Below the pieces are notes generated by a model. It did not search any database. It was not told where the DNA came from and was given only the letters and a program-made list of their open reading frames with translations. The position numbers were made by a program, and so were the translations under genes. From Bacteroidales bacterium (GTDB lineage: Bacteria > Bacteroidota > Bacteroidia > Bacteroidales > UBA12170), in contig JAQIBR010000147.1 in assembly GCA_027858955.1 (NCBI GenBank), forward strand, positions 1 through 32,987: DNA of 32,987 nt, read 5' to 3'. Shown one piece after another: positions 5,690 through 32,905 of the stretch; positions within the stretch are counted from its first letter, which is position 1, and each line of letters begins with the position of its first letter.

Positions 5690-5716
5690 AGGCATTTTTT
5701 CTATTGGAAAATGCCT
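5690..5716. terminator. AT-rich hairpin, possible terminator of toxin-antitoxin unit
   Basis: A perfect 9-bp stem (AGGCATTTT at 5690-5698, AAAATGCCT at 5708-5716) with a 9-nt loop lies in the 294-bp gap between the flavoprotein and toxin genes, about 100 bp past the toxin stop. A moderately T-rich stretch follows on the minus strand. Apart from this hairpin and the -7 box at 5540 I see nothing else in the gap. Confidence 0.4.
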
Positions 5717-5813
5717 TTAAAATGTGAAGATTACCGATTGATCAGTAAAATGAATTTTTTTACTTCAGCTTTTTCTAATTTGCCTATTTAAATGTTAGAT
5801 TAATAAAGCTTAT

Positions 5814-6158
5814 TTAATCATTTTCAAATAGATGACTAATTTTATCTTTGATAATATTTTCGACATTGACATTAATCATTCCCAATTTCCTTTTAATCAA
5901 CTTTTGTGGTATAGTTACCATTTTATGTAACCTAATAACAGAATCAACTGTCAATCCAGTGCCAGTCCAATTGGCACTATTTTTTTCAATAACAAAATCA
6001 CTTTCAATGTGTTCATCTGGAATCTTACTTGAAATAAAGGCAATAATAACGTGCTCATGCTTTCCTATAGCCGAAGTCAAACAGAGTGTTGGCCTGACTT
6101 TAGAAGCAGAAAAATCATCAAAGGGAAAAGGAACTAATACAATTGAGTTCTTAATCAT
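5814..6158 (-). CDS. PemK/MazF-family toxin
   Basis: The product begins MIKNSIVLVPFPFDD and continues SASKVRPTLCL, the typical N-terminus of the PemK/MazF endoribonuclease toxin fold (first beta strand, then the K-x-R-P motif whose Arg contributes to the active site). This start gives 114 residues, normal for the family. An in-frame ATG lies 18 bp further upstream (6176), but the 6158 start gives the classic coupled overlap ATGATTAA with the antitoxin stop and has a GGAG sequence 9 bp before it, so I prefer it. The partner gene is immediately upstream on the same strand. Expected action is RNA cleavage in the cytoplasm when the antitoxin is lost; the cleavage site cannot be predicted here. 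Confidence 0.85.
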   Translation of the reverse strand: MIKNSIVLVPFPFDDFSASKVRPTLCLTSAIGKHEHVIIAFISSKIPDEHIESDFVIEKNSANWTGTGLTVDSVIRLHKMVTIPQKLIKRKLGMINVNVENIIKDKISHLFEND

Positions 6159-6390
6159 TAAATGGTTCTCCATCATTATTTGAATAAATATCTTCTGAAC
6201 TATCCTTTAAAAAATCAAAAGCAGGATTATTTGATATTGAAGACAGCCATAGTTGTTCTTCGTCTTGTTCAGTATTTATATCATCAATTAAAATTATGAT
6301 ACGAACTTTACTATCTGATCTATCCAGTTGATAATCAATTTTTAAATGTCCGGTCTTATCTGTTTTTGAATTTATTTCAATTGCTTTCAT
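6151..6390 (-). CDS. Antitoxin-like partner of the PemK/MazF toxin
   Basis: This 79-residue acidic protein starts MKAIEINSKTDKTGHLKIDY, then a beta-rich stretch KVRIIILIDD, then an acidic tail EDIYSNNDGEPF. This is the pattern of small antitoxin-like proteins (the K-A-I-E-I/.../K-V-R-V-I-I-L-L form) that accompany PemK or PIN toxins in Bacteroidetes and cyanobacteria. It contains no clear DNA-binding motif. Its stop codon overlaps the toxin start by 8 nt, so translation is coupled. A good AAAGGA sequence lies 2 bp before the ATG, and a TATCTTTG -7-like box is at 6408-6415. The pairing is strong; the family name is from memory of the pattern. Confidence 0.75.
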   Translation of the reverse strand: MKAIEINSKTDKTGHLKIDYQLDRSDSKVRIIILIDDINTEQDEEQLWLSSISNNPAFDFLKDSSEDIYSNNDGEPFND

Positions 6391-6407
6391 TTCCTTTCGA
6401 TTTTATA

Positions 6408-6415
6408 CAAAGATA
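6408..6415 (-). promoter_or_regulatory. Putative -7 box (TATCTTTG) of toxin-antitoxin operon
   Basis: TATCTTTG on the minus strand matches TAnnTTTG, 17 bp upstream of the antitoxin ATG. A TTTG lies upstream but at 26 bp spacing, too far for the usual -33 element. Confidence 0.45.
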
Positions 6416-6513
6416 GTAAAATATAGTATTTATTTTCGAACCAAAAATAATCAAACTAAATAATATTGAGTTTTTCGTTAATCTAACTAAACTTCAAAAC
6501 TGCAAACTCAACT

Positions 6514-7245
6514 CTAAACATCAAACTTCTTTCTAATTTCTTGCTCCATCTTAAAAAAATACTGTTTCTCAAGACTATACAGTTTGATTTCAAAAATATA
6601 ACCAGACTCATCTTCATGAATAATTTCTACTTTTGGTGGCCGTTTTATTGATGCCCAAGGAAGGCTTAAAATTTCAAAACGGATTTTATCTATTTTAGTC
6701 TCAGCTTTGTCGCTTTTATTTGATTTTATAGTAAATGCGTGACTTAAAACCATTTCGCCGGGATGCACTTTAATAATGGTTTGGTTGCTTAATTTGCTGT
6801 ATGGAATATAAATTATCTCACCCGAATCGCTTTCAATTTTAAATAAACGGTTGCTCATTTCAATAATTTTTCCTTCAAAATTATTGACCTGAATAATATC
6901 TTTTTCCTTAAAATCTTGGTTCATTTTAAACAAAGCTCCGGCAATAAAATCTTTAATAGAAAACCATAAAATCCAAAATGCACTAAGCATCAATAATAAA
7001 AATAAACCCCAGGAATACAGCTTGTTAGAATCTGAGAATTGTTGAATACAAATTATTATAAAAATTGACCAAATTCCAACTTCGAAAATAGCAATATATT
7101 GTTTTATTAGATTCTTTTTCGATTCGCTTTTAGTAAGATAGGGGATAAATCGTTTTGAAATGAATAAAACCACAAACATAAGCAGAGCAAGGCCGCTAAA
7201 AAACAATAGCTCAAAATTCGAGAAAGTTAAAAAATCGTTTTCCAT
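6514..7245 (-). CDS. Small MscS-like mechanosensitive channel protein
   Basis: This 243-residue membrane protein has three to four hydrophobic segments in its first ~110 residues (about 10-30, 48-68, 76-100). A soluble domain follows whose start, GALFKMNQDFKEKDIIQV...FEGKIIEMSNRLFKIESDSGEIIYIPYSKL, is the MscS beta domain (family pattern G-D-x-I-x-V...G-x-V-x-x-I...T-x-x-x-x-x-D...I-P-N-S). The usual I-P-N-S is I-P-Y-S here. It should gate ion or osmolyte flow across the inner membrane under tension. It begins 12 bp after the stop of the huge permease-ATPase gene on the same strand, so the two are almost surely cotranscribed. That arrangement joins an ion importer with a tension-released channel. 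Confidence 0.83.
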   Translation of the reverse strand: MENDFLTFSNFELLFFSGLALLMFVVLFISKRFIPYLTKSESKKNLIKQYIAIFEVGIWSIFIIICIQQFSDSNKLYSWGLFLLLMLSAFWILWFSIKDFIAGALFKMNQDFKEKDIIQVNNFEGKIIEMSNRLFKIESDSGEIIYIPYSKLSNQTIIKVHPGEMVLSHAFTIKSNKSDKAETKIDKIRFEILSLPWASIKRPPKVEIIHEDESGYIFEIKLYSLEKQYFFKMEQEIRKKFDV

Positions 7246-7257
7246 AGTTTTTATTCT

Positions 7258-10200
7258 TTAAAGCAATTGCCTTTTAATAAGTGATTTTTGCATAAATGCC
7301 AGCATATAAGGGTTCAACTCAAGAATACCATCTGCCAATTGATTTAACAAGCCAGCACGTTTTAGAATATTTACCTTCAGTTGAACATTGCTTTCCGATT
7401 CTCGTGTGACACGAATTAATTTATTCATATTCATTCGTTTATGCAAGATAAACTGCATAATAAAGATCATCCAATCCATTTCAAGAAAATTGAAAACAGA
7501 AGAATTTGGTTGAATGGGTTTTCTAATAAATAATGTATTATTTTCAATTTCATTTATATGAGCTATCCAACTTTGCAAGGCAATACCAATATTGCCTTCG
7601 GAATAGTTGAAATAGCTTGAAAAGAGCCTTGCTGTTTGCCATGAATGCAATGCGGATTCTGGTGTATTCTTAAAATGAAACTGCATGCCAGATGATGTAT
7701 GCCTTTTTAAAATGGCATCCTTAATTTCCTTAGCATTCATGGGCGAAAGTTCAATCAAGTTTATGAAATTACTTTCAATTTTCCGATAATGATTGATTAG
7801 TTTAAAGGCATTAATATCACATGCAAATAAGAATAAATGTTGGCGAGAAAAATCTGCGATTAATTTTATGAATTGATCAATAACCCTCATCCCATTGGTG
7901 CTTTTTTCCCACCATAGTTCTAGATCATCAATAATCAAAACACTTTCGTTTGGTAAACTGTTTAAAATGTTTGCAAATGTTCCCGATTTTTCTGTTGCCG
8001 TTCGAAAACTGGAAAGTAAATCAGAAGGAGCAGTAGATCCGGTAAAAGGAGCTGAAATATGATAAATTTCGCCTTGAATATCCAGTTTATTAATGAGCTG
8101 GTTTAGAAAGAAAGTTTTGCCGGTACTCCTTTCGCCAGTAACTAAAATACCTCCTTTATAGCCATTTCTGAAGTGATGAAAACTTTTTACAGCAGAATCG
8201 AATTCAGCTTCTCGGCCCACCCAGAAATCTTTAATATAGAATTGTTTACTTAAAAAGAGTTGTTTGTAATAATCAGGGAGTTTCTGCAATATCTTTGAAG
8301 AAACACTAACTTTGTCTTTAAACTCCAATAAATCGTTCACACGGGTTTCTTTTTTAAGCATCGCTTTGCTTAGTTTTCGTGCTAAAATTAGTCCGCTACT
8401 TTGATTATACCACAGCTTATTAAGTTGATTTACAATAAAAGAATTAAAATGTTTTAATTGCTTTCTAAGCTTTTCAAACTCATGTTTTTGTGTATGTACA
8501 CGAATATATTGTTTCAGGTTGGTTAAATTTGATACAAATGCATGAAGTTGGAGAGTTTTTTTAATATGTAAATCTCGGGTCTCGAAAAAGTTGGAAAGTT
8601 CTTTTGTTTTATCTTCAAACTCAGCCTCTATCGTGCCAAGTTTTTCCCTTGTCAATCCAACTAAGGCTTCCCAATCTAATTGGTTATCTTTATCAGTTTC
8701 CTTTTTATCAAAAAGATTTAATTGATGGAAAAGCTTATTAAATTCATTTTTCGATAATTGAAGTTCAGATCCAAATTTGAAAAGAAATTCACGTAGTTTG
8801 CTGCTTAGCTCTTTTTCTATAAGATATTCAACAGTACGAATTACAGAAGCTTGTACTACATCTAAAGATTGAAAATATAGAGCTGGGGTATCTTTTCGTA
8901 AACTATCTGAGTATAGCTCAAGTTTCTCAGGAAAAATATTTGTTGCAGCTTTAATTTTTTCGTTTCGAGTATAGTTAATATCCAACATTTGTTGGGAAAC
9001 AAAGTATTCTGAGTTGGGTGTATAACCCTTTATAAGCTCACGAACATTATCAGGATTAGCTTCATTTTTCTCTATTAAACTTAGAATCCCCTTTTGTAGA
9101 TTTTTTACCGGTTGTATACAATCAGTCTTGATATTCTGTGATAACTCATAAAGTTCTTGTCCCAGGTAGAGACGCGTTTGCTGATTGAATTGTAGCAGTC
9201 CATTATTAAGAATATTTTGATTGTAGATCAGATATAAGTTATTGCTGAATAATCCGGCAAAGGTGTTTAGTTGTTTTTTTAGTTTCTTGCTAGTAACATA
9301 ATAATCAATAAGATGGTTTTCGTATGCATTTGGAAATAAACCTGACAGTTGTGCTGAAAAAGTATTTAAATCGGCATTTATCCTCTCATTAGCATGTATT
9401 TGTATATTCTTGATGCTGCTACTAAGAGTATGGCTTAAATTTTGAATAAATTCTTTAATCTGTTTCTGTTTATTATGAAGGTCTTCCTTTGTAGGAAGTT
9501 CGGTTTGATATATTTCGGGCTTTAAAGTTTCAAAAACATCAGAAATTTTCTGCATATTATTAATAAAAGCATTACCCATTATGTAATTCATATGATCGAA
9601 TTCGATCAATGATTGATAAACACCCTCATAAGCCTTATGTGGGAAATGTGTGTCTACTAGGCTCTGATAATTAACATAATACGGAAATTTATGAAAAATT
9701 GACCACAAAGGTTTTAATCGATTTTTTGCTTTTTGAGTTTCTTTATCTTTAATATCAAAAGCGAGAATCTTTTCTTTTGTTAATTGAATTTTAATCCTAG
9801 AAGGCTCTTGTTTTACTAATTTATCGACAAGCTCCATGAAATTAGTTATTTCATGTGCAATGGTTTCAGCCATTATCGGAATCTGGTTTTCGCTCAATTC
9901 ACCCAAATATTGATTTCGCGCACGCATAAGAATGTTATGTTGGGCCACAATAACCTTCTTAAAACTATCTACCGTTTGATGCGATTCTAATCGATTCCCA
10001 AGGTTTTGGAAACTATGGTCAACAATATTTAATAGGTTCTGAATAAGGTTATTATGAAATTCTCCGGAAGCTCTTAATTCACTATTTAATAAAGTAGAAT
10101 GATAGTTTAGTAATTTAGAAGTGAAATTTTCGAATGCTTGAGTAAGTTGAGGTTCTTTTGGAGTGTCTGGGTTCTCAAAAATTACTTTATCGTCTTGATG

Positions 10201-21886: not shown

Positions 21887-21958
21887 GGTCCGTTCGTCTA
21901 GGGGTTAGGACGCCAGGTTTTCATCCTGGTAACAGGGGTTCGATTCCCCTACGGACTA
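21887..21958 (+). tRNA. tRNA-Glu (anticodon UUC), copy 1
   Basis: The 72-nt gene folds into a full cloverleaf. The acceptor stem is GGTCCGT/ACGGACT (first pair G-U), the D arm GTCT/GGAC, the anticodon stem CCAGG/CCTGG with loop TTTTCAT (anticodon TTC), and the T arm AGGGG-TTCGATT-CCCCT. The discriminator base is A and CCA is not encoded. It reads GAA/GAG codons. It is the first member of a short cluster with a second identical copy at 22085. Confidence 0.95.
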
Positions 21959-21982
21959 CAGCACAAAGTTCTATTATATATT

Positions 21983-22001
21983 GGTCCGTTCGTCTAGGGG
22001 T
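21983..22001 (+). pseudogene. Truncated tRNA-Glu (5' 19 nt only)
   Basis: GGTCCGTTCGTCTAGGGGT is identical to the first 19 nt of the two flanking tRNA-Glu genes and is preceded, like copy 2, by ATT. The identity stops in the D loop, where TCCCGATAGCTATCGGGA begins, and the anticodon, T arm and 3' acceptor strand are missing. It cannot make a tRNA. Confidence 0.85.
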
Positions 22002-22003
22002 AA

Positions 22004-22087
22004 GTCCCGATAGCTATCGGGAGCAAGGTTTGATCAATAATTTGATTGAAATCAAGACTCTCAAACGGAAATACCAATAAAATTGGT
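22004..22087 (+). repeat. Palindrome-rich insert interrupting the tRNA-Glu remnant
   Basis: The segment after the tRNA fragment contains the perfect 16-bp-plus palindrome TCCCGATAGCTATCGGGA (22004-22021), a gene-free stretch with related TTTGATCAA and TTGATTGAAATCAA sequences, and a final hairpin ACCAAT-AAA-ATTGGT (22073-22087) whose right arm overlaps the 5' end of tRNA copy 2. The CCCGAT/ATCGGG core resembles the central hairpin of the MITE-like element at 17525-17663. Confidence 0.6.
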
Positions 22088-22156
22088 CCGTTCGTCTAGG
22101 GGTTAGGACGCCAGGTTTTCATCCTGGTAACAGGGGTTCGATTCCCCTACGGACTA
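22085..22156 (+). tRNA. tRNA-Glu (anticodon UUC), copy 2
   Basis: This gene is identical over all 72 nt to the tRNA-Glu at 21887-21958, with the same cloverleaf, anticodon TTC and lack of encoded CCA. It is followed by a strong terminator at 22172-22206. No separate promoter is visible, so it is probably transcribed from the promoter at 21841 together with copy 1 and the remnant. Confidence 0.95.
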
Positions 22157-22171
22157 CTATCCAAAATTCAG

Positions 22172-22384: not shown

Positions 22385-22990
22385 ATGCCACTTAATACTG
22401 TCACAAAAGAAGAAGTAAGCGTACAAACTACTAAAATATCAGAAGATGTTTTGATCAAAGGAATATTGAATAATGATTCAAAAGTCCTTCGCCAAATTTA
22501 TTCTGAGAACTTTGTAAAGATTAAAGTGATGGTATTAAATTTTAAGAATGTCCGTATTGATCCACAAGATGTTTTTCAGGAAGGTCTGACAAGAGCAGTT
22601 GTCAATGTCAGGCAAAATAAATTTAATGCACAAAGTAAATTTTCTACTTATCTATATAGCATTTGCCATAATATCTGTTTAAAAGAATATCAAAAACAGT
22701 ATAAAGAAAGTATTGTGATTAAGGAGTTAGATATTGAAGATGACTCAACTCAATACTTTGAACTACTTCAGTTTGTTCTAAAAATACGAGATCGACTGGA
22801 TGAAACTTGCAAGCAGATTATAGATTTGAGGTTTAATTTGAACGAAAATCAAAGCTCAACAAGATTTGAATATATATCTGAAAAACTCGGTATTATGGCC
22901 GACAATGCCCGACAAAGATTTAGAAGGTGCTTAAATAAATTAATTGAGCAAGTAAATGATCATCCAGGATACAAATCTTTATTTGAATAA
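22385..22990 (+). CDS. ECF-type sigma-70 family sigma factor
   Basis: The 201-residue protein has a sigma region 2 (about 40-105) with DPQDVFQEGLTRAVVNV and KFSTYLYSICHNICLKEYQK, matching the D-x-x-Q-E-x-x-x-x-x-x-x...F-x-x-W-L-x-x-I-x-x-N pattern (Y in place of W). Region 4 (about 135-195) includes LDETCKQIIDLRF and a helix-turn-helix YISEKLGIMADNARQRFRRCLNKL. No region 3 is present, as in ECF factors. It is the first gene of a tightly packed operon whose second gene, 2 bp later, encodes a one-TM putative anti-sigma factor. The following genes encode exported or lipid-anchored proteins, so the regulon is probably an envelope programme. I see no good -33/-7 consensus upstream, in line with possible self-directed transcription. 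Confidence 0.88.
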   Translation: MPLNTVTKEEVSVQTTKISEDVLIKGILNNDSKVLRQIYSENFVKIKVMVLNFKNVRIDPQDVFQEGLTRAVVNVRQNKFNAQSKFSTYLYSICHNICLKEYQKQYKESIVIKELDIEDDSTQYFELLQFVLKIRDRLDETCKQIIDLRFNLNENQSSTRFEYISEKLGIMADNARQRFRRCLNKLIEQVNDHPGYKSLFE

Positions 22991-22992
22991 CT

Positions 22993-23706
22993 ATGAGTAT
23001 AGATGATAAATTAAAGTGGATAGAAAAATATATCGATCATTCTTTGACTGATGATGAGCAGAAGGAATTTGAATCTATGCTCAAAGAAGACCTGGAGCTA
23101 TCCAAGTTACTCGAGCAGCAGATTAAATTGAACAAATTATGGAATGATGCTAAACTTTACAAAGAAACTAAATCTGAAGTAAATAATGCTCTACGTTTTC
23201 AAGCAAAGAAACATCTACAAATCAAAACGGTTTGGATTTATTCGTTAGCCGCAGTTATTCTCTTATTCATTGGGATAACGTCAGTTATACTTTTTACTGC
23301 TAAAAGGGATATTCCATCTGATCAGCATTATGCCGATACTCCTACTGGTGGTCAGGATTCCATTTCAATGACCGATTTTAAGCTTGATAAACCAGAAAGT
23401 AAAGCCACCTTTTCAAATATAAATACAAATAGAGGTATCGAGTTAATATACCCTGATAGCAACCAAAGAATCATATATCAGCAGCAAATCAGGTTTGTAT
23501 GGTATTCTGAAAATCATATCGAAAACATTGATACTCTTTTCATAAGATCACTTCCTAACGAAAAGGTGCTTATATTAAAGCCGATTTCTTTAAAAGAAAC
23601 ATCTTATATATTGGATAACAATACTTTAAAACCCGGTAAATATAGCTGGACTATAGGTAGAACAAGTAAAATCATAGAATTCTTAATTGAAAATAAAGAT
23701 GATTAA
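22993..23706 (+). CDS. Putative anti-sigma factor, single-pass membrane protein
   Basis: The 237-residue protein has an N-terminal acidic helical part, KLKWIEKYIDHSLTDDEQKEFESMLKEDLELSKLLEQQ (7-43). This resembles the cytosolic anti-sigma pattern (I-x-x-Y-L-x-G-x-L-x-x-x-E-x-x-x-F-E-x-x-L-x-x-D). One TM helix follows at about 80-102 (VWIYSLAAVILLFIGITSVILF), then a beta-rich periplasmic domain (about 145-235). That domain ends in LKPGKYSWTIGR, typical of an Ig/FN3-like fold. The gene starts 2 bp after the sigma factor stop, so coupling is likely. Its topology is right for sensing the periplasm and holding the sigma factor at the membrane. No zinc-binding H-x3-C-x2-C motif is seen. The anti-sigma role rests on topology and position rather than a clear family match. 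Confidence 0.7.
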   Translation: MSIDDKLKWIEKYIDHSLTDDEQKEFESMLKEDLELSKLLEQQIKLNKLWNDAKLYKETKSEVNNALRFQAKKHLQIKTVWIYSLAAVILLFIGITSVILFTAKRDIPSDQHYADTPTGGQDSISMTDFKLDKPESKATFSNINTNRGIELIYPDSNQRIIYQQQIRFVWYSENHIENIDTLFIRSLPNEKVLILKPISLKETSYILDNNTLKPGKYSWTIGRTSKIIEFLIENKDD

Positions 23707-25165
23707 AAGAAACATATTAATGCTGATTATTGGTATTGCTTTATTACCAAGTGCATATAGCCAGATCAATACTAATTCATTTGATAGCATATTTAATGCT
23801 TTTAAAAATGATATACAAACAGAATTTGACCAATTTAAAGCTGCTAATGATTCTGTGTTCGTCAGTTTTCTTCGTCAATCATGGGAAGAGTACGACTTGC
23901 TATTATCTGAAAGGCCACCATCCCGACCAAAACCCAAAACTCAACCTGTTGTTACTGACCTAGAAAAGAAAGCTATTGAATTGATCCCTGAAACTAAACC
24001 TGCCATTAATTTACATCCTCCGGATAAAGAACATTTTGAAAAAACAGATATTGACAATAAAAATATTTTCGATTTAGCAAAATACACTACAAAATTTGAA
24101 TTTAAATTCTATGGTACTGATATTGATTTTGATGCTCCAAAAGATAAGCTACAAATTATAAAAAAAGTCTCTAATACCGACATAGCAAAATTTTATGAAG
24201 ATGCTTCAAAATCGGATTTTTTCACTGCACTACTTCAACAGTCCATATTATATAAGCATATTTTAAAATTAAACGGTTGGGCATATCTCAAATTGTGTAA
24301 TGAGTTGTCGAAGGAGATTTATAGCGATAATAATATGCAGGTTTTAGCTTTATGGTATCTTATGGTTAATTCGGGTCATAAAGCAAAAGTTGCATATAAC
24401 AGTGATGAAATTTATTTGTTATGTGTTTATGATGCTCCTATTTTTAACGTTAACTACATTCCTATAAATAACGAACATTACTACCTCTATCTCAAAGATA
24501 ATTCAACACCTGATTTTAATACATTATTTACCTATAAGGAAAATCACCAGCAGCAAACCGAGTCCGTTTCATTATCTCTAAATCAAATCCCTGAATTTGA
24601 TCTTGATCTTTCAATAAAAAACATTAATTTTATGGGTCAAAAGATTGAAGCTCAGATTAACAATAACCTGATCAATTTTTACACCGACTATCCTGATTGC
24701 GCTTTAGAAATTACTCTTAATGCACCTTTGTCTGATATAGCTTTTCAAAGTCTTGATTCATTTCTTGCAAAAAAAATGAAGAATCTGGATGATAGAGAGA
24801 AACTTGATTTTCTGCTTGATTTTGTTCAACGCGCTTTTGAGTACAAAACGGATGAAGATCAATTCGGTAAAGAAAATTATTTATTTGCCGACGAAAGTTT
24901 GAATTACCCATACAGCGATTGCGAAGACAGAGTAGCTTTATTAGTACAACTCCTTAAAAAATATACAGATTTAATTTTTGTTGGATTAGATTTTCCCGAA
25001 CATATTTCTCTTGCAGTGCATTTAAATGAAGAAATTAACGGTGCTTTTATTGATGTTGATAATCTAAAATATTATGTATGCGATCCAACTTATATGGGAG
25101 CTAAGTGCGGAATGATAATGCCAGTATTTATAGGTGTAAATCCTAAAATAATAAACTTAAATTAA
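23699..25165 (+). CDS. Exported transglutaminase-like (Cys-His-Asp) protein
   Basis: From the ATG at 23699 the product has 488 residues and begins MIKRNILMLIIGIALLPSAYSQ, a clear signal peptide. The C-terminal part carries the transglutaminase-like triad: C408 in YPYSDCEDRVALLVQLL, H435 in FPEHISLAVHL, and D462 in YYVCDPTYMGA. This is the papain-like fold used by bacterial transglutaminase-like proteases and amidases. Residues ~60-390 are not recognised. The start overlaps the anti-sigma stop as ATGATTAA, so translation is coupled; an earlier in-frame ATG (23687) lies deeper in the upstream gene and would spoil the signal peptide less cleanly. It is a periplasmic or surface enzyme or, if inactive, a peptide-binding protein. 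It is placed between the anti-sigma gene and a DUF4384 gene. Confidence 0.8.
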   Translation: MIKRNILMLIIGIALLPSAYSQINTNSFDSIFNAFKNDIQTEFDQFKAANDSVFVSFLRQSWEEYDLLLSERPPSRPKPKTQPVVTDLEKKAIELIPETKPAINLHPPDKEHFEKTDIDNKNIFDLAKYTTKFEFKFYGTDIDFDAPKDKLQIIKKVSNTDIAKFYEDASKSDFFTALLQQSILYKHILKLNGWAYLKLCNELSKEIYSDNNMQVLALWYLMVNSGHKAKVAYNSDEIYLLCVYDAPIFNVNYIPINNEHYYLYLKDNSTPDFNTLFTYKENHQQQTESVSLSLNQIPEFDLDLSIKNINFMGQKIEAQINNNLINFYTDYPDCALEITLNAPLSDIAFQSLDSFLAKKMKNLDDREKLDFLLDFVQRAFEYKTDEDQFGKENYLFADESLNYPYSDCEDRVALLVQLLKKYTDLIFVGLDFPEHISLAVHLNEEINGAFIDVDNLKYYVCDPTYMGAKCGMIMPVFIGVNPKIINLN

Positions 25166-25169
25166 ACTT

Positions 25170-26075
25170 ATGAAGCCTTTGATAAAAATATTGTGTTTAT
25201 TTATTTTAGTGGCTTTATTTATGCCTTTAAGAAGTTATTCACAGAAAGTAAAAACTGCTAAAGGAATAGCAACTGTAAAAATAGAAGCTCATTTAACTAA
25301 GCTTGAAACAAGAAACAAAGCTATGCAACTTGCCATTATTAACGCTATTGAAAATGAATTTGGCACTTATGTTGAACAGGAAGCAGATATTACGATTGTC
25401 GATGGTAAAACATCTTTTAGCTTAATAGGTAGCACTAAAGTAAAAGGCGAATGGATAGAGACTATAAAAGAAAATTATACTGAAACATCACGGGAAATAA
25501 GAGAAAACGGAGAAACCAAAGTTGAGGTATATATAACTTGCGAAATAAAAGGCAAAGTTAGAGAAATCCTGCCCAAAGCAAGTTTAGAGTATGAATTATT
25601 AAATTGTCCGCAACTAGAATGCAGAACTAGAACTTTTCTTGTTAACGAACAACTCTATTTATATTTTAGAAGTCCTGTTGATGGTTATTTGTCTGTTTTT
25701 GTTGATGAAAGTACAATTATTAGGCGAATACTCCCCTATAGTTTTATGCCCGATATATACCAAAACGGAATTGAGATTAAGGCCGATAAAGAATATCTAT
25801 TTTTTAGTCCTAAACATAACAGCTTCTCTAACAGCGTAGTTGATGAAATGATACTCTATACTATAAAGAATGAAGAAAGAATTACATTGGTCCTGGCGTT
25901 TTCTGAAAAACCTTTTAAAAAACCTATATTAAATGAAATAGAAAAAGTGGGTGATTTAATATTACCAAAATCACTGTCCGCAAATAAATTTACTGAATGG
26001 TTAATCGATAACCGATCGACTGAAAATAGTTTTCAAGATTTGAATATTAATTTTCAAATTATTAATCCCAATTAA
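25170..26075 (+). CDS. Exported DUF4384-domain protein
   Basis: The 301-residue product has a signal peptide (MKPLIKILCLFILVALFMPLRSYSQ is split by its hydrophobic core, cleavage near residue 25). Residues ~28-135 look like an LPP20/FlgT N-terminal-type domain (KGIATVKIEAHLTKLETRNKAMQLAIINAIENEFG, with strands TSFSLIGSTKV and KVEVYITCEIKGKV). Residues ~150-240 fit DUF4384: QLYLYFRSPVDGYLSVFVDES, RRILPYSF and the K-A-D-K-E-Y-L-F-F end strand. DUF4384 is, from memory, often fused to or adjacent to caspase-family peptidases, and a caspase gene lies two genes downstream. It begins 4 bp after the transglutaminase-like gene. Likely it is a periplasmic or outer-membrane-associated accessory; no catalytic residues are evident. 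Confidence 0.75.
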   Translation: MKPLIKILCLFILVALFMPLRSYSQKVKTAKGIATVKIEAHLTKLETRNKAMQLAIINAIENEFGTYVEQEADITIVDGKTSFSLIGSTKVKGEWIETIKENYTETSREIRENGETKVEVYITCEIKGKVREILPKASLEYELLNCPQLECRTRTFLVNEQLYLYFRSPVDGYLSVFVDESTIIRRILPYSFMPDIYQNGIEIKADKEYLFFSPKHNSFSNSVVDEMILYTIKNEERITLVLAFSEKPFKKPILNEIEKVGDLILPKSLSANKFTEWLIDNRSTENSFQDLNINFQIINPN

Positions 26076-26085
26076 TTCATAAATC

Positions 26086-27729
26086 ATGAATAAGATGAAA
26101 GCCATCTTGATAATTAGTGCATTACTAATCGTATTTTTTTCGTGCCGGAAGACTCCTGAGAATCCGTCTGAGGGAAATAAAATAGAATTAGGTCAATCCG
26201 TTATCGATACTGTAGGTTATTTTAATAGTAAGATTATAACTACTATAACAGATTTAGGAGGCAATACTATCAGTCAACACGGACATTGCTGGAGCTTGAC
26301 TGAAAACCCGACAATAGATGACTTTAAAACTTCCAAAGGAACAATTAGCCAAGCCACAAGCTTTTATAGTGACCTGACATCACTTACACCAAATACAAAA
26401 TATTACATACGACCTTATCTTACTTATGCACGAGGCACTATATATGGAAGTCAACTTTCCATTACAACTTTACAAACAGAAAAACCCGTTGTTACAACAA
26501 AAGCGATAACAGGCATTACCCTTTACACAGCAATAAGTGGTGGTACTGTAACTTCAGATGGTGGATTAACGGTTACCCAAAGAGGTATTTGTTGGAGTAC
26601 AGAGCAGAATTTTGATTTAGCAACTAGTTTAAGTAGCACAAGCAATGGAACAGGTTTTGGAATCTATACTTCAAATATGCTCGACCTCCTTGCCGGTACA
26701 ACTTATTACGTTAAAGCGTATGCAACAAATGCAGCCGGAACAAGTTACGGACAAACTTTAAGTTTTACTACCACTCCTATTACAACACCTACAGTTACAA
26801 CAGCTGATATATCCAATATAACAACAACATCAGCAGAAAGCGGAGGAAATATTACTAGTGATGGAGGTTCATCAGTCACTGCGAGGGGTGTTTGTTGGAG
26901 TACGAACCAGAACCCAACAACTGCAGATAGCAAAACAACGGATGGAACTGGTACAGGAAGTTTCATAAGCTCTCTAGTAGGTTTAATACCGTGGACAACA
27001 TATTATGTTAGGGCTTATGCAACTAATGAAAAAGGTTCAAGTTACGGAGAATTAAATGAATTTGAAACATATGTAACTATTATTGATTCGCGAGATGGCC
27101 AAGTTTATAAAACTGTTGTAATAGGTAGCCAAATATGGTTTGCCGAAAACCTAAAATACTTACCTTCAGTTGTTGGTTATGGCACTGGTTCTGAAACAAC
27201 ACCCTATTATTTTGTTTACGGTTATGATGGCACTGTTGTATCCGATGCCAAGGCAACTTCAAATTACACTACTTATGGCGTATTGTACAACTGGATTGCA
27301 GCAATGAACTCTGCAGCAAGTAGTACATCAAACCCGAGTGGTGTACAAGGAGTATGCCCAAGTGGATGGCATTTGCCAAGTGATGATGAGTGGAAACAAA
27401 TGGAAATGTTTATTGGCATGAACCAAAGTACGGTTGATAACATAGGTTGGCGTGGTACAGACGAGGGTAGTAAACTCAAATCTACCAGCGGATGGTATGT
27501 TAATAGCGGTAATAATAGCAGTAGTTTTACAGCTCTCCCCGGAGGCTTCTTCAATGCCGGTGTGGGGTACTTCGACGGTCTTGGCAAATCTGGTTTCTGG
27601 TGGTCATCTAGTGAGAGCTCGAGTTCCATTGTCGTATGCCGAACCTTGAGCTATGACAAAGATGGCATATTTCTAGGCTTCAATGGCAAGACTCCAGGTT
27701 TCTCAGTCCGCTGCCTAAAAGACGACTGA
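26086..27729 (+). CDS. FISUMP-domain lipoprotein with FN3-like repeats, paralog 1
   Basis: This 547-residue surface lipoprotein has a lipobox with C20 (VFFSC) followed by R-K-T-P-E-N-P. Three ~95-residue FN3-like repeats follow (about 35-330), each containing a G-H/I/V-C-W-S segment (GHCWS, GICWS, GVCWS) and an ending like TYYVRAYATNEKGSSYG. From about residue 333 there is a FISUMP domain (Fibrobacter succinogenes major paralogous domain): DGQVYKTVVIGSQIWFAENLKYLP, GVLYNWIAAM, CPSGWHLPSDDEWKQME, SGFWWSSSESS and the C-terminal FSVRCLKD. The repeats suggest an extended stalk displaying a C-terminal module. It lies 10 bp after the DUF4384 gene. A second in-frame ATG (26095) is possible. Two paralogs follow downstream. 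Role: probably binding or adhesion; unproven. Confidence 0.87.
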   Translation: MNKMKAILIISALLIVFFSCRKTPENPSEGNKIELGQSVIDTVGYFNSKIITTITDLGGNTISQHGHCWSLTENPTIDDFKTSKGTISQATSFYSDLTSLTPNTKYYIRPYLTYARGTIYGSQLSITTLQTEKPVVTTKAITGITLYTAISGGTVTSDGGLTVTQRGICWSTEQNFDLATSLSSTSNGTGFGIYTSNMLDLLAGTTYYVKAYATNAAGTSYGQTLSFTTTPITTPTVTTADISNITTTSAESGGNITSDGGSSVTARGVCWSTNQNPTTADSKTTDGTGTGSFISSLVGLIPWTTYYVRAYATNEKGSSYGELNEFETYVTIIDSRDGQVYKTVVIGSQIWFAENLKYLPSVVGYGTGSETTPYYFVYGYDGTVVSDAKATSNYTTYGVLYNWIAAMNSAASSTSNPSGVQGVCPSGWHLPSDDEWKQMEMFIGMNQSTVDNIGWRGTDEGSKLKSTSGWYVNSGNNSSSFTALPGGFFNAGVGYFDGLGKSGFWWSSSESSSSIVVCRTLSYDKDGIFLGFNGKTPGFSVRCLKDD

Positions 27730-27803
27730 ATATATATATATCATATTTAAGGAAATGGCAAGCAGTCAAATAGAAACGGAAAAAACAACTTGTGAAAAAA
27801 CAG

Positions 27804-27811
27804 TAACTTTG
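27804..27811 (+). promoter_or_regulatory. Putative -7 box (TAACTTTG) of caspase gene
   Basis: TAACTTTG matches TAnnTTTG 23 bp before the caspase ATG in the 105-bp gap after the first FISUMP gene. No TTTG lies at the right spacing upstream. It is compatible with a secondary promoter inside the locus. Confidence 0.4.
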
Positions 27812-27834
27812 CAAGAAATAAACGCAAATGCCTT

Positions 27835-29595
27835 ATGAAAAATTTCATTACTATTATTTTATTGGTATTATTGTCAATAAGCGCCTTTCCACAAAAGATT
27901 ATATCAGGTAAAAGCCAACCCAAAAGATTTGTAATTAATCCTACTTTCGTAAGAGGTATTCCGCCTAACTTATATATAAGCATGGACTTTGTGGATCAGG
28001 ATAATGATGGTTTGCTTGAAGCCGAAGAATCGGCTATGTTAACCTTAACCATTACCAACAAAGGCAGCGGTAATGCGCAAGGCTTAAAAATCTTAGTAAA
28101 AGATAGTCAATCCGACCCGGCACTAATCATCAATGACGGCAGAAGCATCCCTTTTCTAGCTCCAAATAAAAGCATTGAAGTTAAAATCCCAATTACAGCC
28201 AAACGTGATATTAAAGAAGCTGAACATAAAATGGAAATTTCAGTTAGCGAACATTTTGGTTATAATGCTGATCCAGCATTTCTTATGCTAAATACTTTTG
28301 CATTTCAAGAACCGGAATTGGTATTTAGTGGTCTTGAGATTGTTGATATTGGTGAAGGAACAGGAGCTATTAAAGTAGATGGCCAACTTCAAGCGGGCGA
28401 AATGGTAAAAGCAAAGATAGTAGTGCAAAATATTGGTCAAAACATTGCTCCGAACACAATCTTTAGTGTTACATCCAATGATAATGATATTTACCTCGCC
28501 AATAATTCAGGCAAACTGGGTGATTTGGGTATTGGAGAAGTTAAAGAATTTTGGATAACCGTCAGTCCAAACAAAAGAGTTGCTAATGAAGGAAAATTAC
28601 CAATTTATCTAAGCTTAAAAAACGATTATGGAGTTGGTAATATGTACAATTTTAACTTACCCGTTCAGATGAATCAAAAACCGCCTGAGCCAAAAGTATT
28701 AGCTATTAAACCAAATGAAAATAAAATTAAAAACATTGCCAGATTTGAATATAACTCATCAAGAATTACGGCTAATATTGGAAATATAATTGACATTAAA
28801 CAAGTACCGCCATCAAAAACAATTAGAAAGGATGCTATTGCTATAATTATCGGTGTTGAGAAATATAAAAATTTTATCGATGCACCTTATGCTTCTAACG
28901 ATGCTCGCATCATAAAAGAATACTTTAAAAATGTACTTGGTATTAGTCAAGTGATTGCATATACCGATAAGCAAGTTACAGGTTTCTTTTTCGATGATAC
29001 ATTTAATCCATATTATGGTGAATTACAAAAAGCTATTATAAAAGGAAAAACAGAAGTGTTTGTGTTTTATTCCGGTCATGGAATGCCTTCAAAAGATGGA
29101 GATAAAATATTCCTTTTCCCTTATGATGGCAGAATAGAAGCTATTGAAACACAGGGATTTAATTTGAACAAATTTTATACTGATTTGGATGCTTTGGATG
29201 CAAAAAATGTGACAATATTTATTGATGCCTGTTTTAGTGGAGTTTCAAGAGCTTCCGAGAATTACAAGATAGAAAATCTGATTTCGATGAAGGGAGTGGC
29301 GATAAAACCTAAAATTACTCAACCATGGGAATCCAATCCAAATTTTACTGTATTTTCTTCTTCTGCATTCGATCAAACCTCACTGGGTTTTGATGATTCC
29401 GAAACAGGATTGTTTACTTATTCTTTATGTGCAGGATTACAAGGTAAAGCTGATGAAAATGGCGATAAAAAAATTACATCGGGCGAATTGGCAGACTATG
29501 TTCAAAAAAAGGTGAAAGAATTATCAGTGAAAATTCACGGATTGCAAACACCACAATTTAACGGAAATCGTAATATTGTTTTAGGAGAATATTAA
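27835..29595 (+). CDS. Exported caspase-family (C14/metacaspase-like) protease
   Basis: The 586-residue protein has a signal peptide (MKNFITIILLVLLSISAFPQ). Residues ~40-280 are beta-rich, of CARDB/Ig-like appearance (MLTLTITNKGSGNAQGLKI, MVKAKIVVQNIGQNIAP). The caspase domain spans ~333-586: KDAIAIIIGVEKYKNF opens it, the catalytic His is H415 in FVFYSGHGMP, and the nucleophile is C466 in IFIDACFSG, the metacaspase-type D-A-C-F-S-G motif. The dyad is intact. Two EF-hand-like loops, DQDNDGLLEAEE (54-65) and DENGDKKITSGE (~540-551), suggest Ca2+ binding, which activates many metacaspases. The export signal places the protease in the periplasm or outside, unlike most cytosolic bacterial caspases. 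It is followed 16 bp later by a barrel protein. Substrates are unknown. Confidence 0.88.
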   Translation: MKNFITIILLVLLSISAFPQKIISGKSQPKRFVINPTFVRGIPPNLYISMDFVDQDNDGLLEAEESAMLTLTITNKGSGNAQGLKILVKDSQSDPALIINDGRSIPFLAPNKSIEVKIPITAKRDIKEAEHKMEISVSEHFGYNADPAFLMLNTFAFQEPELVFSGLEIVDIGEGTGAIKVDGQLQAGEMVKAKIVVQNIGQNIAPNTIFSVTSNDNDIYLANNSGKLGDLGIGEVKEFWITVSPNKRVANEGKLPIYLSLKNDYGVGNMYNFNLPVQMNQKPPEPKVLAIKPNENKIKNIARFEYNSSRITANIGNIIDIKQVPPSKTIRKDAIAIIIGVEKYKNFIDAPYASNDARIIKEYFKNVLGISQVIAYTDKQVTGFFFDDTFNPYYGELQKAIIKGKTEVFVFYSGHGMPSKDGDKIFLFPYDGRIEAIETQGFNLNKFYTDLDALDAKNVTIFIDACFSGVSRASENYKIENLISMKGVAIKPKITQPWESNPNFTVFSSSAFDQTSLGFDDSETGLFTYSLCAGLQGKADENGDKKITSGELADYVQKKVKELSVKIHGLQTPQFNGNRNIVLGEY

Positions 29596-29611
29596 TTCAA
29601 ATTATAATCAC

Positions 29612-30445
29612 ATGAAAAAATTAATTGCATTTGTTCTTCTTGCTATAATCTTCACGACTAGCTATGGGCAGTCTGTTAAAGTAAAAAACTCTAGATTTTT
29701 AGATAATAAAATTTATGTTGATTACAATATAACAGGTACAAAGTATTATCAAACTATTACAGTTTATCTCTATGTCAGCCGTGATCGAGGACAAACTTTT
29801 GAAGGACCTATGGAACAAGTAAGTGGAGATATTGGTAATATAAATAAGGGTGGAAATCATACAATAATTTGGGATTTCTTAAAAGAAATGCCTTTTACGG
29901 ATGAAGAGCTAGTATTTGATGTCAGGATAAAAGTGAATGAAGAGGCAAGAAAGAGAAAATATTATTTGTCTTATGTTGGTAATCTTTCTTCACCAATTGG
30001 CTTTAGAGTTGGTCTTATCAATAAAATAGGATTTTATATTGAAGGAAGAATGTCTTTACCACCAACGGATGCAATTAGCTATAATTATAATGGACGGCTA
30101 TATGATTACGATAAAAACGGATATTATCAGTTTACAGGTGCGAATCAAATTGAAGCGAAAACTATTTTGTTAGGGATCAATACGCAGATTTCACGGAATT
30201 CATTTTTATATTTTGCTGCTGGCTATGGAATAGATTTTTATAAACTTGAAATCGATGAATTTAATTACAATGATAATTCATTGGAGGGAAGTTCATGGAT
30301 CAAAGATGAAACCCAATCATACTCCGGAGTTGAAATAGATGCAGGTTTAATGCTACGCTTTGGAAGTATTGTTTTATCTGCAGGTGGAAGTATAATCAAT
30401 TTTGAACAACCCAACTTTACATTAGGGTTGGGGTTTAATCTATAA
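29612..30445 (+). CDS. Exported beta-rich protein, probable outer-membrane barrel
   Basis: The 277-residue product has a signal peptide (MKKLIAFVLLAIIFTTSYGQ). An N-terminal Ig-like strand region (SVKVKNSRFLDNKIYVDYNI...GGNHTIIWDFLKE, about 20-110) is followed by about 140 residues of alternating hydrophobic/aromatic strands. The C-terminus ends GSIVLSAGGSI...FTLGLGFNL, the usual aromatic or hydrophobic-ending strand of Bacteroidetes outer-membrane barrels. This N-terminal module is, from memory, common in Bacteroidetes proteins next to FISUMP or formylglycine-type genes. It begins 16 bp after the caspase, so the two are probably cotranscribed; it may anchor or present the protease at the outer membrane. 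No enzymatic motif is seen. I do not recognise a named family. Confidence 0.7.
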   Translation: MKKLIAFVLLAIIFTTSYGQSVKVKNSRFLDNKIYVDYNITGTKYYQTITVYLYVSRDRGQTFEGPMEQVSGDIGNINKGGNHTIIWDFLKEMPFTDEELVFDVRIKVNEEARKRKYYLSYVGNLSSPIGFRVGLINKIGFYIEGRMSLPPTDAISYNYNGRLYDYDKNGYYQFTGANQIEAKTILLGINTQISRNSFLYFAAGYGIDFYKLEIDEFNYNDNSLEGSSWIKDETQSYSGVEIDAGLMLRFGSIVLSAGGSIINFEQPNFTLGLGFNL

Positions 30446-30448
30446 AAG

Positions 30449-30473
30449 GATTGTTGTAAAATATTAAACAATC
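30449..30473 (+). terminator. Weak hairpin after barrel gene
   Basis: GATTGTT (30449-30455) and AACAATC (30467-30473) form a perfect 7-bp AT-rich stem around an 11-nt loop, followed by TTATATA. It could end the caspase-barrel transcript, but the T tract is poor. Nothing else is seen in this 106-bp gap. Confidence 0.4.
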
Positions 30474-30551
30474 TTATATAGAAAAATAGCTTATTGTCAC
30501 AAATCACAGATAATAGGTACAAACAATTAAAATCACTTAAAAATAGAAATC

Positions 30552-31199
30552 ATGAAAAAGACAATTTTTACCTTAATCGCATTTTTTACATTATCTCTTA
30601 TTAATCCTTTATCAGCTCAACAATCAGATAAAGATCTTACCAGATCTATTAGAAAAAATGCGGTAAGAGAAGCCAGGAAACAGGCGAGAAAGTACAAAAG
30701 AGACGACTATTACGTTGCTCTAGGAGCTTTACCTATGGATAAGCAATTGGAACAAGCGTGGAAGTACCAGTTGATGACTGAAGATGATGGATTTCCATCG
30801 TATATTGTAGCTACTGGAAACTCTGTAGCAGAAACACAGATTGCAGCCAAACTTCAAGCAACTGAGGTTGCCAAACTTGAACTTGCAGGAACTATTGCTA
30901 CCAATGTAGCTGCTTTAATTGAGACCAATATTGCAAACCAGCAATTAAATACAGAAGAAGCCGCTTCGGTAACAAAAACAGTTGCGGCAGCAAAGAATAT
31001 AATAGCTCAACGAATAGGCCGTGTAATAACTATGGTTGAGATGTATAAAAAAATTGGATCCAATGTAGAAGCCAATGTTCGCTTAGCATACAATAGCCAA
31101 ATGGCAAATGAAATAGCCAAGAAAGTAATCCGCAAGGAATTGGAAGAACAAACCGATTTAATGCAAGACAAACTTGAAAAACTAATGGATTTCAAATAG
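30552..31199 (+). CDS. Exported LPP20-like helical protein
   Basis: The 215-residue product starts MKKTIFTLIAFFTLSLINPLSAQQ, a signal peptide. The mature part is mostly helical and basic at first (RKNAVREARKQARKYKRDDYYV). Then comes AETQIAAKLQATEVAKLELAGTIATNVAALIET, whose A-x-x-x-A-K-L-E-L-A-x-x-I pattern resembles the LPP20/FlgT-N type fold, and VEANVRLAYN, a likely strand. It ends in a charged helix (LMQDKLEKLMDFK). No lipobox Cys is present after the signal. The same fold type seems to occur in the N-terminal part of the DUF4384 protein upstream. It stands between the barrel gene and the second FISUMP gene, with a terminator directly after it. Its role is unknown. Confidence 0.65.
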   Translation: MKKTIFTLIAFFTLSLINPLSAQQSDKDLTRSIRKNAVREARKQARKYKRDDYYVALGALPMDKQLEQAWKYQLMTEDDGFPSYIVATGNSVAETQIAAKLQATEVAKLELAGTIATNVAALIETNIANQQLNTEEAASVTKTVAAAKNIIAQRIGRVITMVEMYKKIGSNVEANVRLAYNSQMANEIAKKVIRKELEEQTDLMQDKLEKLMDFK

Positions 31200-31213
31200 A
31201 TGATTATTATAAA

Positions 31214-31245
31214 GGCAAGATTTCAATTTGAGGTCTTGTCTTTTT
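31214..31245 (+). terminator. Terminator after LPP20-like gene
   Basis: GGCAAGA (31214-31220) and TCTTGTC (31234-31240) form a 7-bp stem with one G-U pair and a 13-nt loop, followed by TTTTTCCTTTT. It lies 15 bp after the stop codon and 56 bp before the next start. Confidence 0.78.
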
Positions 31246-31300
31246 CCTTTTATTGGAAGCTTTTTATATTATACCGAAAATAAAGATTAATTCCATTGTC

Positions 31301-32905
31301 ATGAAAATTAAAGCTATCCTCTTAATAATAGTAGCATTTGTATCAGTTACTATATCTTGCCGGAAGACCCCTGAGAATCCTGTTGGTGGAAATAAAATAG
31401 AGATTGGTCAATCGGCTATTGATAATATTGGTTATTTCGATAGTAAAATAACAACTACTATTACAGATTTGGGTGGCAATACCATTAATCAGCATGGACA
31501 TTGCTGGGGCATTAGTGAAAATCCAACAATAACAGATTTCAAAACTTCTAAAGGTGCAATGAGCCAAGCAACAAGCTTTTATAGCGATCTAACATCACTT
31601 ACTCCAGAAACAAAATACTATATTAGACCTTACCTTACTTATGCTCAAGGTACTGTTTATGGTAGTCAACTTTCCATTACAACTTTACAAACACAGAAAC
31701 CTGTTGTTTCAACAAAAGATATCACAAACATTAGTATTCATACGGCAACCGGAGGTGGCGAAGTAACACAGGACGGTGGATTAACAGTTACACAGAGAGG
31801 TATTGTTTGGAGTACCAATCAAGACCCGACCCTTACTAGCAATATAGGAATGACTTCTGATGGGGCGGGAATAGGAATCTTCACCAGCAATATAACAAAC
31901 CTATCCGAAGGATCAACTTATTATGTAAAAGCTTATGCCACAAATAGTATAGGAACAGCTTATGGCAGTCAGGCAACCTTCACAACTTTGGCAGTTCCTG
32001 TTTTGACCACTGCCACTATATCGGCTATTAACTCAACATCAGCAAGCGGTGGTGGTAATATTTCTTCCGATGGAGGAGCATCAGTTACAGCTCGTGGAGT
32101 ATGCTGGAATACGACAGGCAATCCAACAATTTCAAACAGTAAAACAACTGATGGTACAGGAACTGGGGTTTTTACAAGTAATATGACAGGATTGGAGAAT
32201 AATACAATCTATTATGTTCGGGCTTATGCCACCAATGCCGTAGGTACAAGTTATGGAAATGAAGTGAGTTTTCCTTTGATTATGAATGTTCCCGGACCTT
32301 CAGTTACCGACATTAATGGAAATGTGTACAAAACAGTTAAAATTGGTAACCAGGTTTGGATGGCCGAAAACCTAAAGACCACTAAATACCGAGAAGGAAC
32401 TCTAATACCTAATATTACGGATGCTACTGACTGGGCAAATCTTACTTCAGGTGCCTATTGTTATTTTAGTAATAGTACTTCAATTGGTGCTATTTACGGA
32501 GCATTATACAATTTCTTTGCAGTAACGGACAACCGGAAAATTTGCCCAACTGGTTGGCATGTTCCTTCAGATTCTGAATGGTCTATATTAAGGGAATATT
32601 TAGGCGGTGAAGAAATTGCTGGTGGAAAATTAAAAGAAACAGGATTAGAACACTGGGTTGACCCCAATGTTGGTGCGGACAATAGTGCAGGCTTTACAGC
32701 GTTGGGGGGCAGCTGGCGTGGTACCAATGGTCCATTCTATTATTATACTGGAAGAACTACAGTATTTTGGTCTTCAACAGTAGACGATTCCAACAATCCC
32801 GTATTTTATGAACTTACTTATGATAGTTCAAATTTTGGCAGAAGAGTTGGCACTATATATTTCCTTAAAAATGCCGGATTAAGCGTTCGCTGCCTTAAAG
32901 ATTAA
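31301..32905 (+). CDS. FISUMP-domain lipoprotein with FN3-like repeats, paralog 2
   Basis: From the ATG at 31301 the product has 534 residues, with the lipobox Cys at residue 20 (VTISC) followed by R-K-T-P-E-N-P, exactly as in paralog 1 at 26086. An upstream in-frame ATG (31253) is rejected because it would put 16 extra residues before the signal peptide and lies close behind a terminator. Three FN3-like repeats carry GHCWG, GIVWS (Cys lost) and GVCWN. The FISUMP domain starts near residue 336 (NGNVYKTVKIGNQVWMAENLKTTKY, ALYNFFAV, CPTGWHVPSDSEWSILREYLGG, TVFWSSTVDD, LSVRCLKD). The N-terminal repeats are much closer to paralog 1 than the FISUMP domains are. A third copy begins 11 bp downstream. 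Confidence 0.87.
   Translation: MKIKAILLIIVAFVSVTISCRKTPENPVGGNKIEIGQSAIDNIGYFDSKITTTITDLGGNTINQHGHCWGISENPTITDFKTSKGAMSQATSFYSDLTSLTPETKYYIRPYLTYAQGTVYGSQLSITTLQTQKPVVSTKDITNISIHTATGGGEVTQDGGLTVTQRGIVWSTNQDPTLTSNIGMTSDGAGIGIFTSNITNLSEGSTYYVKAYATNSIGTAYGSQATFTTLAVPVLTTATISAINSTSASGGGNISSDGGASVTARGVCWNTTGNPTISNSKTTDGTGTGVFTSNMTGLENNTIYYVRAYATNAVGTSYGNEVSFPLIMNVPGPSVTDINGNVYKTVKIGNQVWMAENLKTTKYREGTLIPNITDATDWANLTSGAYCYFSNSTSIGAIYGALYNFFAVTDNRKICPTGWHVPSDSEWSILREYLGGEEIAGGKLKETGLEHWVDPNVGADNSAGFTALGGSWRGTNGPFYYYTGRTTVFWSSTVDDSNNPVFYELTYDSSNFGRRVGTIYFLKNAGLSVRCLKD

Follow-up and report, generated by a model that had tools for sequence, protein, structure and literature searches.

The stretch of DNA analyzed here (the window, all 32,987 nucleotides of a Bacteroidales contig) contains nine co-directional genes that span positions 22385 to 32905 with intergenic gaps of no more than 106 bp (Table 1). 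The leading gene encodes an ECF sigma factor, and 2 bp after it starts the gene for a putative membrane anti-sigma factor, which has no family match and a predicted outer part of ∼130 residues. The third gene encodes a transglutaminase-like protein, a second thiol protease of the same operon, which has no Pfam family match and whose Cys-His-Asp triad is kept in 12 of 12 sequences, the window included. It is followed by a DUF4384-like protein, a domain that scores above its cut-off (36 versus 27) in an LPP215-like cassette protein of a related locus, L088. The remaining genes encode a first Fn3-repeat lipoprotein with a FISUMP domain, the caspase-fold protease, the protein BB277, which is single-copy in the source genome, the LPP20-like protein LPP215, which is 58% identical to a caspase neighbor in locus L040, and a second Fn3/FISUMP lipoprotein. 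Rfam matches were limited to two tRNAs, with two tRNA-Glu(ttc) genes at 21887-22157; the cassette starts 228 bases further on. Promoter- and terminator-like patterns were no more common in the window than in shuffled sequence, and for this reason the element TAACTTTG at 27804, just 5' of the caspase gene, is not claimed as a promoter.

Table 1. Features of the caspase gene and of the surrounding cassette, in window coordinates.
Feature	Position	Strand	Basis or remark
ECF sigma factor	22385..22990	+	TIGR02937, 54.6 bits (cut-off 42.9)
Putative membrane anti-sigma factor	22993..23706	+	Position, topology; one TM helix, residues 85-103
Exported transglutaminase-like thiol protease	23687..25165	+	Cys-His-Asp triad
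Exported DUF4384-like protein	25170..26075	+	PF14326, E 0.014, below cut-off
Fn3-repeat lipoprotein, C-terminal FISUMP domain	26086..27729	+	PF09603, 129.9 bits (cut-off 33.9); Cys20
Caspase-fold protease gene	27835..29595	+	586 aa, ATG start; ORF and Pfam
Predicted N-terminal export signal, ∼residues 1-20 (MKN...SAFPQ)	27835..27894	+	Sole hydrophobic stretch, no Cys nearby
First Ig-like domain (CARDB at residues 54-135)	27955..28305	+	Pfam, model strands; outer boundaries approximate
Ca2+-type loop of first Ig domain, residues 54-65, DQDNDGLLEAEE	27994..28029	+	Sequence, conservation
Second Ig-like domain	28306..28674	+	Model strands, weak DUF11 match (183-226), alignment; boundaries approximate
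Caspase domain, residues 329-586	28819..29592	+	PF00656; top structural match AtMC4
D356, predicted acidic S1 residue	28900..28902	+	TbMCA2 Asp95 position; 21/21 in clade
S413 (predicted S1) and catalytic H415	29071..29079	+	Each 21/21 in clade
D464 (predicted S1) and catalytic C466 in DACFSG	29224..29232	+	Each 21/21 in clade
K486, candidate self-cleavage site in linker after p20	29290..29292	+	Basic in 21/21
EF-hand-type loop, residues 540-551, DENGDKKITSGE	29452..29487	+	Joins last two caspase-fold helices
Exported Ig-like and small beta-barrel-like protein BB277	29612..30445	+	Barrel is a sequence reading
Exported LPP20-like protein LPP215	30552..31199	+	LPP20 name by analogy
Second Fn3-repeat FISUMP lipoprotein	31253..32905	+	PF09603, 148.6 bits; ATG likely at 31301

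The caspase is the only PF00656 protein in the source genome. Its Peptidase_C14 match covers residues 335-577 with 65.2 bits against a cut-off of 21.4, and the score above this curated value together with the catalytic His and Cys places the protein in the C14 family; the model for EACC1-associated caspases (NF047832) gave 57.3 bits, below its cut-off of 140. The protein has a single hydrophobic stretch, residues 1-19, without a lipobox Cys, and only two cysteines overall (466 and 532). The hydrophobicity and the absence of a nearby Cys point to a type I signal rather than a lipoprotein signal, and relatives (e.g., L050 and L035) have a similar N-terminal start. The signal peptide of the initial annotation is thus borne out by the sequence, as are its N-terminal Ig-like domains: a CARDB (Ig-like) match at residues 54-135 (24.4 bits, cut-off 22.7) and strands in the model lie ahead of the caspase fold. 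Paracaspases are defined in PMC6426788, as excerpted, by an N-terminal Ig domain of PF00047, PF13895, or PF13927; none of these was found by Pfam at the N terminus, where CARDB alone passes its cut-off. The AF2 model, built from four sequences, is of low confidence overall (mean pLDDT 58.4). A fold search with model residues 329-586 returned the metacaspase AtMC4 as the best match (Z 19.1), followed by caspase-8, CED-3, and MALT1 at Z 17 to 18 (MALT1, 17.5). Sequence searches against solved structures, with the single protein, a full-length profile, and a caspase-domain profile, gave no significant relative. Two of the five weak matches of the caspase-domain profile are entries of one putative Ca2+-binding protein that align at the EF-type loop with E values of 1.8 and 1.9, which is suggestive only.

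Conservation was assessed in a clade of 21 sequences that was first picked by >39% identity and later recovered as one tree group with a support of 99/100; two truncated caspases (L085 and L086, <100 bits) were excluded before alignment. The initial annotation had expected an active enzyme from an intact H415 and an intact C466 in the DACFSG motif. Both residues are in place, with H415 in an SGHG motif, and the dyad is kept in 21/21 clade members. On the basis of motif and of spacing from the dyad, D356, S413, and D464 match Asp95, Ser156, and Asp211 of TbMCA2, and D356 and D464 match Asp365 and Asp462 of MALT1; the acidic S1 residues of both enzymes are as given in excerpts of PMC4357240. All three window residues occur in 21/21 sequences and would form the acidic S1 pocket for Arg/Lys that marks metacaspases, while the position of TbMCA2 Cys92 is Ala or Ser in this clade. 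Because the S1 residues are acidic throughout, the caspase is predicted to cleave after Arg or Lys. Asp specificity was rejected on the same invariant residues, which makes the Asp substrates named by the initial annotation alongside Arg/Lys unlikely. The linker that follows p20 (residues 468-495) is modeled with pLDDT <50 and holds a candidate self-cleavage site at residue 486, where 19 of the 21 sequences have Lys and the other two Arg.

The initial annotation also described two acidic loops of the D-x-D/N-x-D-G type. Both exist and both are constrained in the manner of an EF-hand, except that the second loop carries Lys instead of Gly at its sixth position. In the C-terminal loop, each ligand position (D1, N/D/S3, D/N5, T/S9, and E12) is kept in 21/21 clade members and positions 2, 4, and 10 vary; in the Ig loop, position 1 is Asp in 17/18 and position 12 Glu in 18/18. 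Equal constraint to that of the Ca2+ ligand positions (1, 3, 5, 9, and 12) is found for 2 of 792 five-position sets in the C-terminal loop and for 1 of 792 in the Ig loop. When the protein was shuffled 20,000 times, at least two loops with the strict EF pattern appeared in 10 of the shuffles. Downstream of the catalytic Cys, 20/21 clade members have a strict loop, compared to 0.7% of shuffled tails; the alignment places one inserted residue in the C-terminal loop of L084. Oxygen-bearing residues at loop positions 1, 3, 5, and 12 (21/21 each) lie between two helices, 526-535 and 549-566 in the low-confidence AF2 model, as in an EF-hand. The Pfam match to EF-hand_1 at 540-551 (E 0.0056) stays below the threshold, with 16.6 bits against the curated PF00036 cut-off of 25.4. 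The loop in the caspase is a single one. EF-hands usually pair.

Taken as the joint basis of Ca2+ control, as the initial annotation had it, the two loops part ways. The second Ig-like domain has a degenerate version of the Ig loop near residues 177-189 in the alignment, and in distant caspases position 12 of the Ig loop is Glu in 32 of 45 rows, with seven of the remaining rows being gaps. Since the 54-65 loop is part of an Ig domain and is present in most distant caspases that have no second loop, it is probably structural. In the model, only the 540-551 loop is positioned to influence catalysis. The L5 loop helps form the S1 pocket in clan CD enzymes (PMC4357240, in excerpt), and because the EF-type loop comes directly after the equivalent of L5, a Ca2+-set L5 is a sensible hypothesis for this caspase. 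The four-Asp Ca2+ site of TbMCA2 (D173, D189, D190, and D220) is at most one-quarter conserved, at D431 (20/21), by spacing from the dyad rather than by superposition; the other positions are not consistently acidic.

An EF-type loop in a C14 protein is not new as such. Of 37 other C14 proteins, drawn from the phylum, L034, viral contigs, and one plasmid, 6 also have an EF pattern after the Cys, which makes the motif recurrent and not unique, and archaeal orthocaspases with EF-hand motifs have been published (PMC6426788, in excerpt). Within the family it behaves as a clade label: it is absent from 27/27 rows of the sister clade and requires three changes on the tree. Overall, Ca2+ control of the caspase is plausible from the sequence, and Ca2+ may at least stabilize the enzyme and possibly license it. 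An alternative that we rate slightly short of even odds is that both loops are structural only, with Ca2+ stabilizing the exported protease without regulating it. Stabilization by Ca2+ is common among secreted enzymes, and because Ca2+ is plentiful outside the cell a switch that depends on it would always be on. The Ig loop shared with distant caspases that lack the second loop fits this alternative, as do the 27 sister-clade members that manage without the EF loop, and the gingipain Ca2+ sites are described as stabilizing in the excerpted PMC4357240. A purely structural part is harder to reconcile with the modeled location of the EF loop right behind the substrate-binding loop and with a strict pattern kept in 20/21 sequences. 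A clade with an EF-type loop in its catalytic fold opens the Ca2+ regulation of bacterial caspases to direct testing.

The gene cassette, which the initial annotation did not mention, is more informative about function than the two loops are. Neighborhoods were taken for 40 of the order-wide matches and for 15 matches from a separate search, a selection and not the whole. In 16 of 20 clade loci (window excluded) a Fn3/FISUMP gene lies within four ORFs of the caspase, on the same strand in 14, and BB277 is a separate gene within that distance in 10; these counts come from mechanical ORFs of at least 80 aa, with neighbor profiles built and iterated on the same loci as counted and several loci cut by contig ends. 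Among the four loci without Fn3/FISUMP in this range, the contig of L050 ends and L076 has a FISUMP gene 3.4 kb downstream. A FISUMP domain above the Pfam cut-off is present near the caspase in some loci only, the common part being the Fn3 repeat. In 7 of the 20 loci, the N-terminal domain of BB277 is instead fused to the N terminus of the caspase; fused and separate forms occur together in 0/20 and neither in 3/20. The fused portion corresponds to approximately the first 110 residues of BB277 and is followed by a DUF5683-like hydrophobic segment, which stays below the DUF5683 cut-off. This arrangement, an N-terminal BB277 Ig-like domain plus a DUF5683-like segment, was observed in the long caspases L032, L033, L036, L037, L076, L077, and L083, which are probably membrane-tethered because of that segment. 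In L074 (6697-8624, + strand), a second, membrane-type BB277-like gene and a Fn3 gene stand directly upstream of the caspase; the cassette may duplicate this pair of adaptor and lipoprotein.

Gene order is kept in two related loci. L084 reads sigma, anti-sigma, transglutaminase-like, DUF4384-like, LPP20-like, caspase, BB277, and Fn3 repeat protein, and L035 reads anti-sigma, transglutaminase-like, DUF4384-like, caspase, BB277, and FISUMP, without the sigma factor and LPP215. At 27 sister loci, Fn3/FISUMP genes were counted 13 times, BB277 15, DUF4384-like 11, LPP20-like 6, and transglutaminase-like 3 times, versus 2, 5, 0, 0, and 1 for 39 background ORFs from the same loci. No account of this cassette was found among the papers listed by searches on FISUMP, LPP20, DUF4384, retroelements with caspases, and exported orthocaspases.

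The caspase itself is sporadic: a search of 393 genomes of the order gave matches with E values of 1e-30 or lower in 54, and 10/10 same-genus genomes lack it, with at most Ig-domain matches there. Horizontal spread of the cassette fits this distribution. The tRNA-Glu pair and the absence from the ten same-genus genomes hint at an island. In another phylum, on plasmid pSULFM1 of Sulfurimonas aquatica (L119, 4906-7712, + strand), a caspase gene overlaps a gene for an LPP20 family lipoprotein. In viral contigs, a single-protein search gave no relatives and a profile search returned six distant caspases. Sporadic occurrence, including 0/10 in the genus, is what one might expect of an exported protease with ordinary house-keeping or nutritional duties whose neighbors are there by chance; this reading does not account for neighbors that recur across families or for the mutually exclusive fusion and separation of BB277. 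Given the cassette it is already unlikely, and we consider it a long shot.

The head of the operon raises a different option, in which the caspase or its transglutaminase-like partner would cut the anti-sigma factor and free the ECF sigma factor in the manner of a site-1 protease. In both the window and L084, the co-directional run opens with the sigma and anti-sigma-like genes, a related pair occurs at L093, and the outer part of the anti-sigma-like protein offers a possible target. However, a gene of this kind (g237-like) is found within four ORFs of the caspase in only 2 of 20 clade loci. Such cleavage might take place in the window, but with most loci lacking the gene it cannot be what the enzyme does in general, and as an explanation of the enzyme it is improbable.

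Two loci connect the cassette to diversity-generating retroelements. In L035 (genome G056), a FISUMP-like gene adjoins the caspase, and its end repeats, with some mismatches, a sequence found further downstream; 28 of 33 differences fall at template adenines (28/28 beyond the first 20 bases; P 5e-11, hypergeometric). In L090 (G076, sister clade), 20 of 21 mismatches do so (P 5e-10, hypergeometric). The FISUMP domain at this locus scores 128.1 bits (PF09603); an Avd gene (PF22296) is present with 58.5 bits, above a cut-off of 40, and a reverse transcriptase (PF00078) is matched with 34.0 versus 29.6. The FISUMP domain of L035 lies below the Pfam cut-off and was called by similarity to the window FISUMP genes. 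Such adenine-specific repeats are the signature of a diversity-generating retroelement. The regions concerned, with the repeats on FISUMP genes beside caspases, are 4445-7358 (− strand) in L035 and 66-2723 (− strand) in L090, and G056 has a further reverse transcriptase match, next to more FISUMP genes, on contig C101. A scan for template and variable repeats across 57 loci and the window gave these two convincing cases only; L104 gave low-count matches (6/8), and adenine-specific repeats were absent from the window. We also considered a retroelement that acts on the window FISUMP genes; none was found, as there are no repeats and the FISUMP contigs of the source genome (C35, C187, and C203) differ from those with reverse transcriptase matches. 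FISUMP is a known retroelement target domain and has been assigned a C-type lectin fold (PMC4159848 and PMC8143477, in excerpt). This fold assignment rests on those papers, because our model of the domain is poor (mean pLDDT 46.6) and a fold search and a profile search gave no matches. At these two loci, and not for the window, the repeats indicate that forced diversification acts, or once acted, on some caspase partners as binding heads.

Diversified FISUMP genes linked to caspases at two loci support recognition as the job of the cassette. They could also suggest an extracytoplasmic defense or suicide effector, with the Fn3/FISUMP lipoproteins as variable antigen sensors and a caspase that kills or protects upon binding, and caspase-like effectors do occur with retroelement-diversified sensors in other conflict systems (PMC10907252 and PMC7159879, in excerpt). 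We regard this as unlikely: in the scan of 57 loci plus the window, the repeats turned up at two loci only and not in the window itself, and the reverse transcriptases at both loci look truncated. Furthermore, PADLOC reported no complete system and only a partial caspase match, and the ATPase and adaptor parts of the published systems were not noticed on general inspection.

Our preferred interpretation, to which we assign a probability of roughly one-half, is that the window encodes an exported, catalytically intact C14 caspase homolog that cuts after Arg/Lys and is the proteolytic member of a conserved set of envelope genes. We read the caspase as the working enzyme of a cassette for recognition at the cell surface. 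In the mechanism we propose, the ECF sigma/anti-sigma pair would switch the cassette on, and the caspase would work outside the cytoplasm, tied to the envelope via the BB277 module, whether fused or encoded next door. Ca2+ would occupy the Ig loop and stiffen the stalk, and Ca2+ in the EF-type loop would set the preceding substrate loop, such that the caspase becomes competent only after export. The enzyme could then mature through self-cleavage of the linker at K486. Ligand binding by the Fn3/FISUMP lipoproteins may recruit or release the caspase, which would cut a nearby envelope protein, most likely these lipoproteins themselves; they would accordingly be substrates or regulators. The complete scheme, an outside-facing, Ca2+-gated caspase system with FISUMP sensors, a BB277 relay, and an EF-hand that licenses cleavage outside the cell, is a speculative extension that we would not bet on. 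Of the many bacterial caspase homologs, only a few have been assigned a role, and research has centered on cytoplasmic ones. A cassette that recurs, with lipoprotein partners and an adaptor that is either fused or separate, names likely partners and substrates, the missing piece for these enzymes.

Among known systems, bacterial orthocaspases and other C14 peptidases such as MaOC1 of Microcystis share with the caspase its fold, the His/Cys dyad, and the predicted Arg/Lys specificity. The caspase differs from them in being exported and in having two N-terminal Ig-like domains, an EF-type loop within the final third of the caspase fold, and an envelope cassette. MaOC1, a characterized bacterial orthocaspase, is Ca2+-independent, and cyanobacterial orthocaspases are known to carry DUF4384 as an accessory domain (both PMC7475262, in excerpt). 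Among metacaspases, AtMC4 has the closest solved fold and the acidic S1 residues are shared; unlike in TbMCA2, the four-Asp site is not conserved, D431 at most, and the EF-type loop is located elsewhere. The paracaspase MALT1 likewise combines Ig-like domains with the caspase on one chain, a similar fold, and an acidic S1 pocket, whereas the window Ig domains are of the bacterial CARDB type and not of the families that define paracaspases (PMC6426788, in excerpt). Archaeal orthocaspases include seven proteins with an EF-hand motif and 15 with an N-terminal Big_7 next to p20 (PMC6426788, in excerpt). In contrast to these, the window loop is built into the caspase fold and is characteristic of a clade, a combination that the excerpted text does not describe. 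Lastly, retroelement-diversified conflict systems (PMC10907252, PMC7159879, and PMC7517822, in excerpt) pair a variable sensor of C-type-lectin fold with a caspase-like peptidase. As described there they are mostly cytoplasmic and ATPase-based, whereas the caspase and lipoproteins of the cassette all have export signals and we noticed no ATPase in the set of conserved neighbors; the two are alike in logic and not in parts. If the Ca2+-gated scheme were true, the cassette would represent an extracytoplasmic counterpart of the known cytoplasmic caspase conflict systems, with sensors that are retroelement-diversified in some strains.
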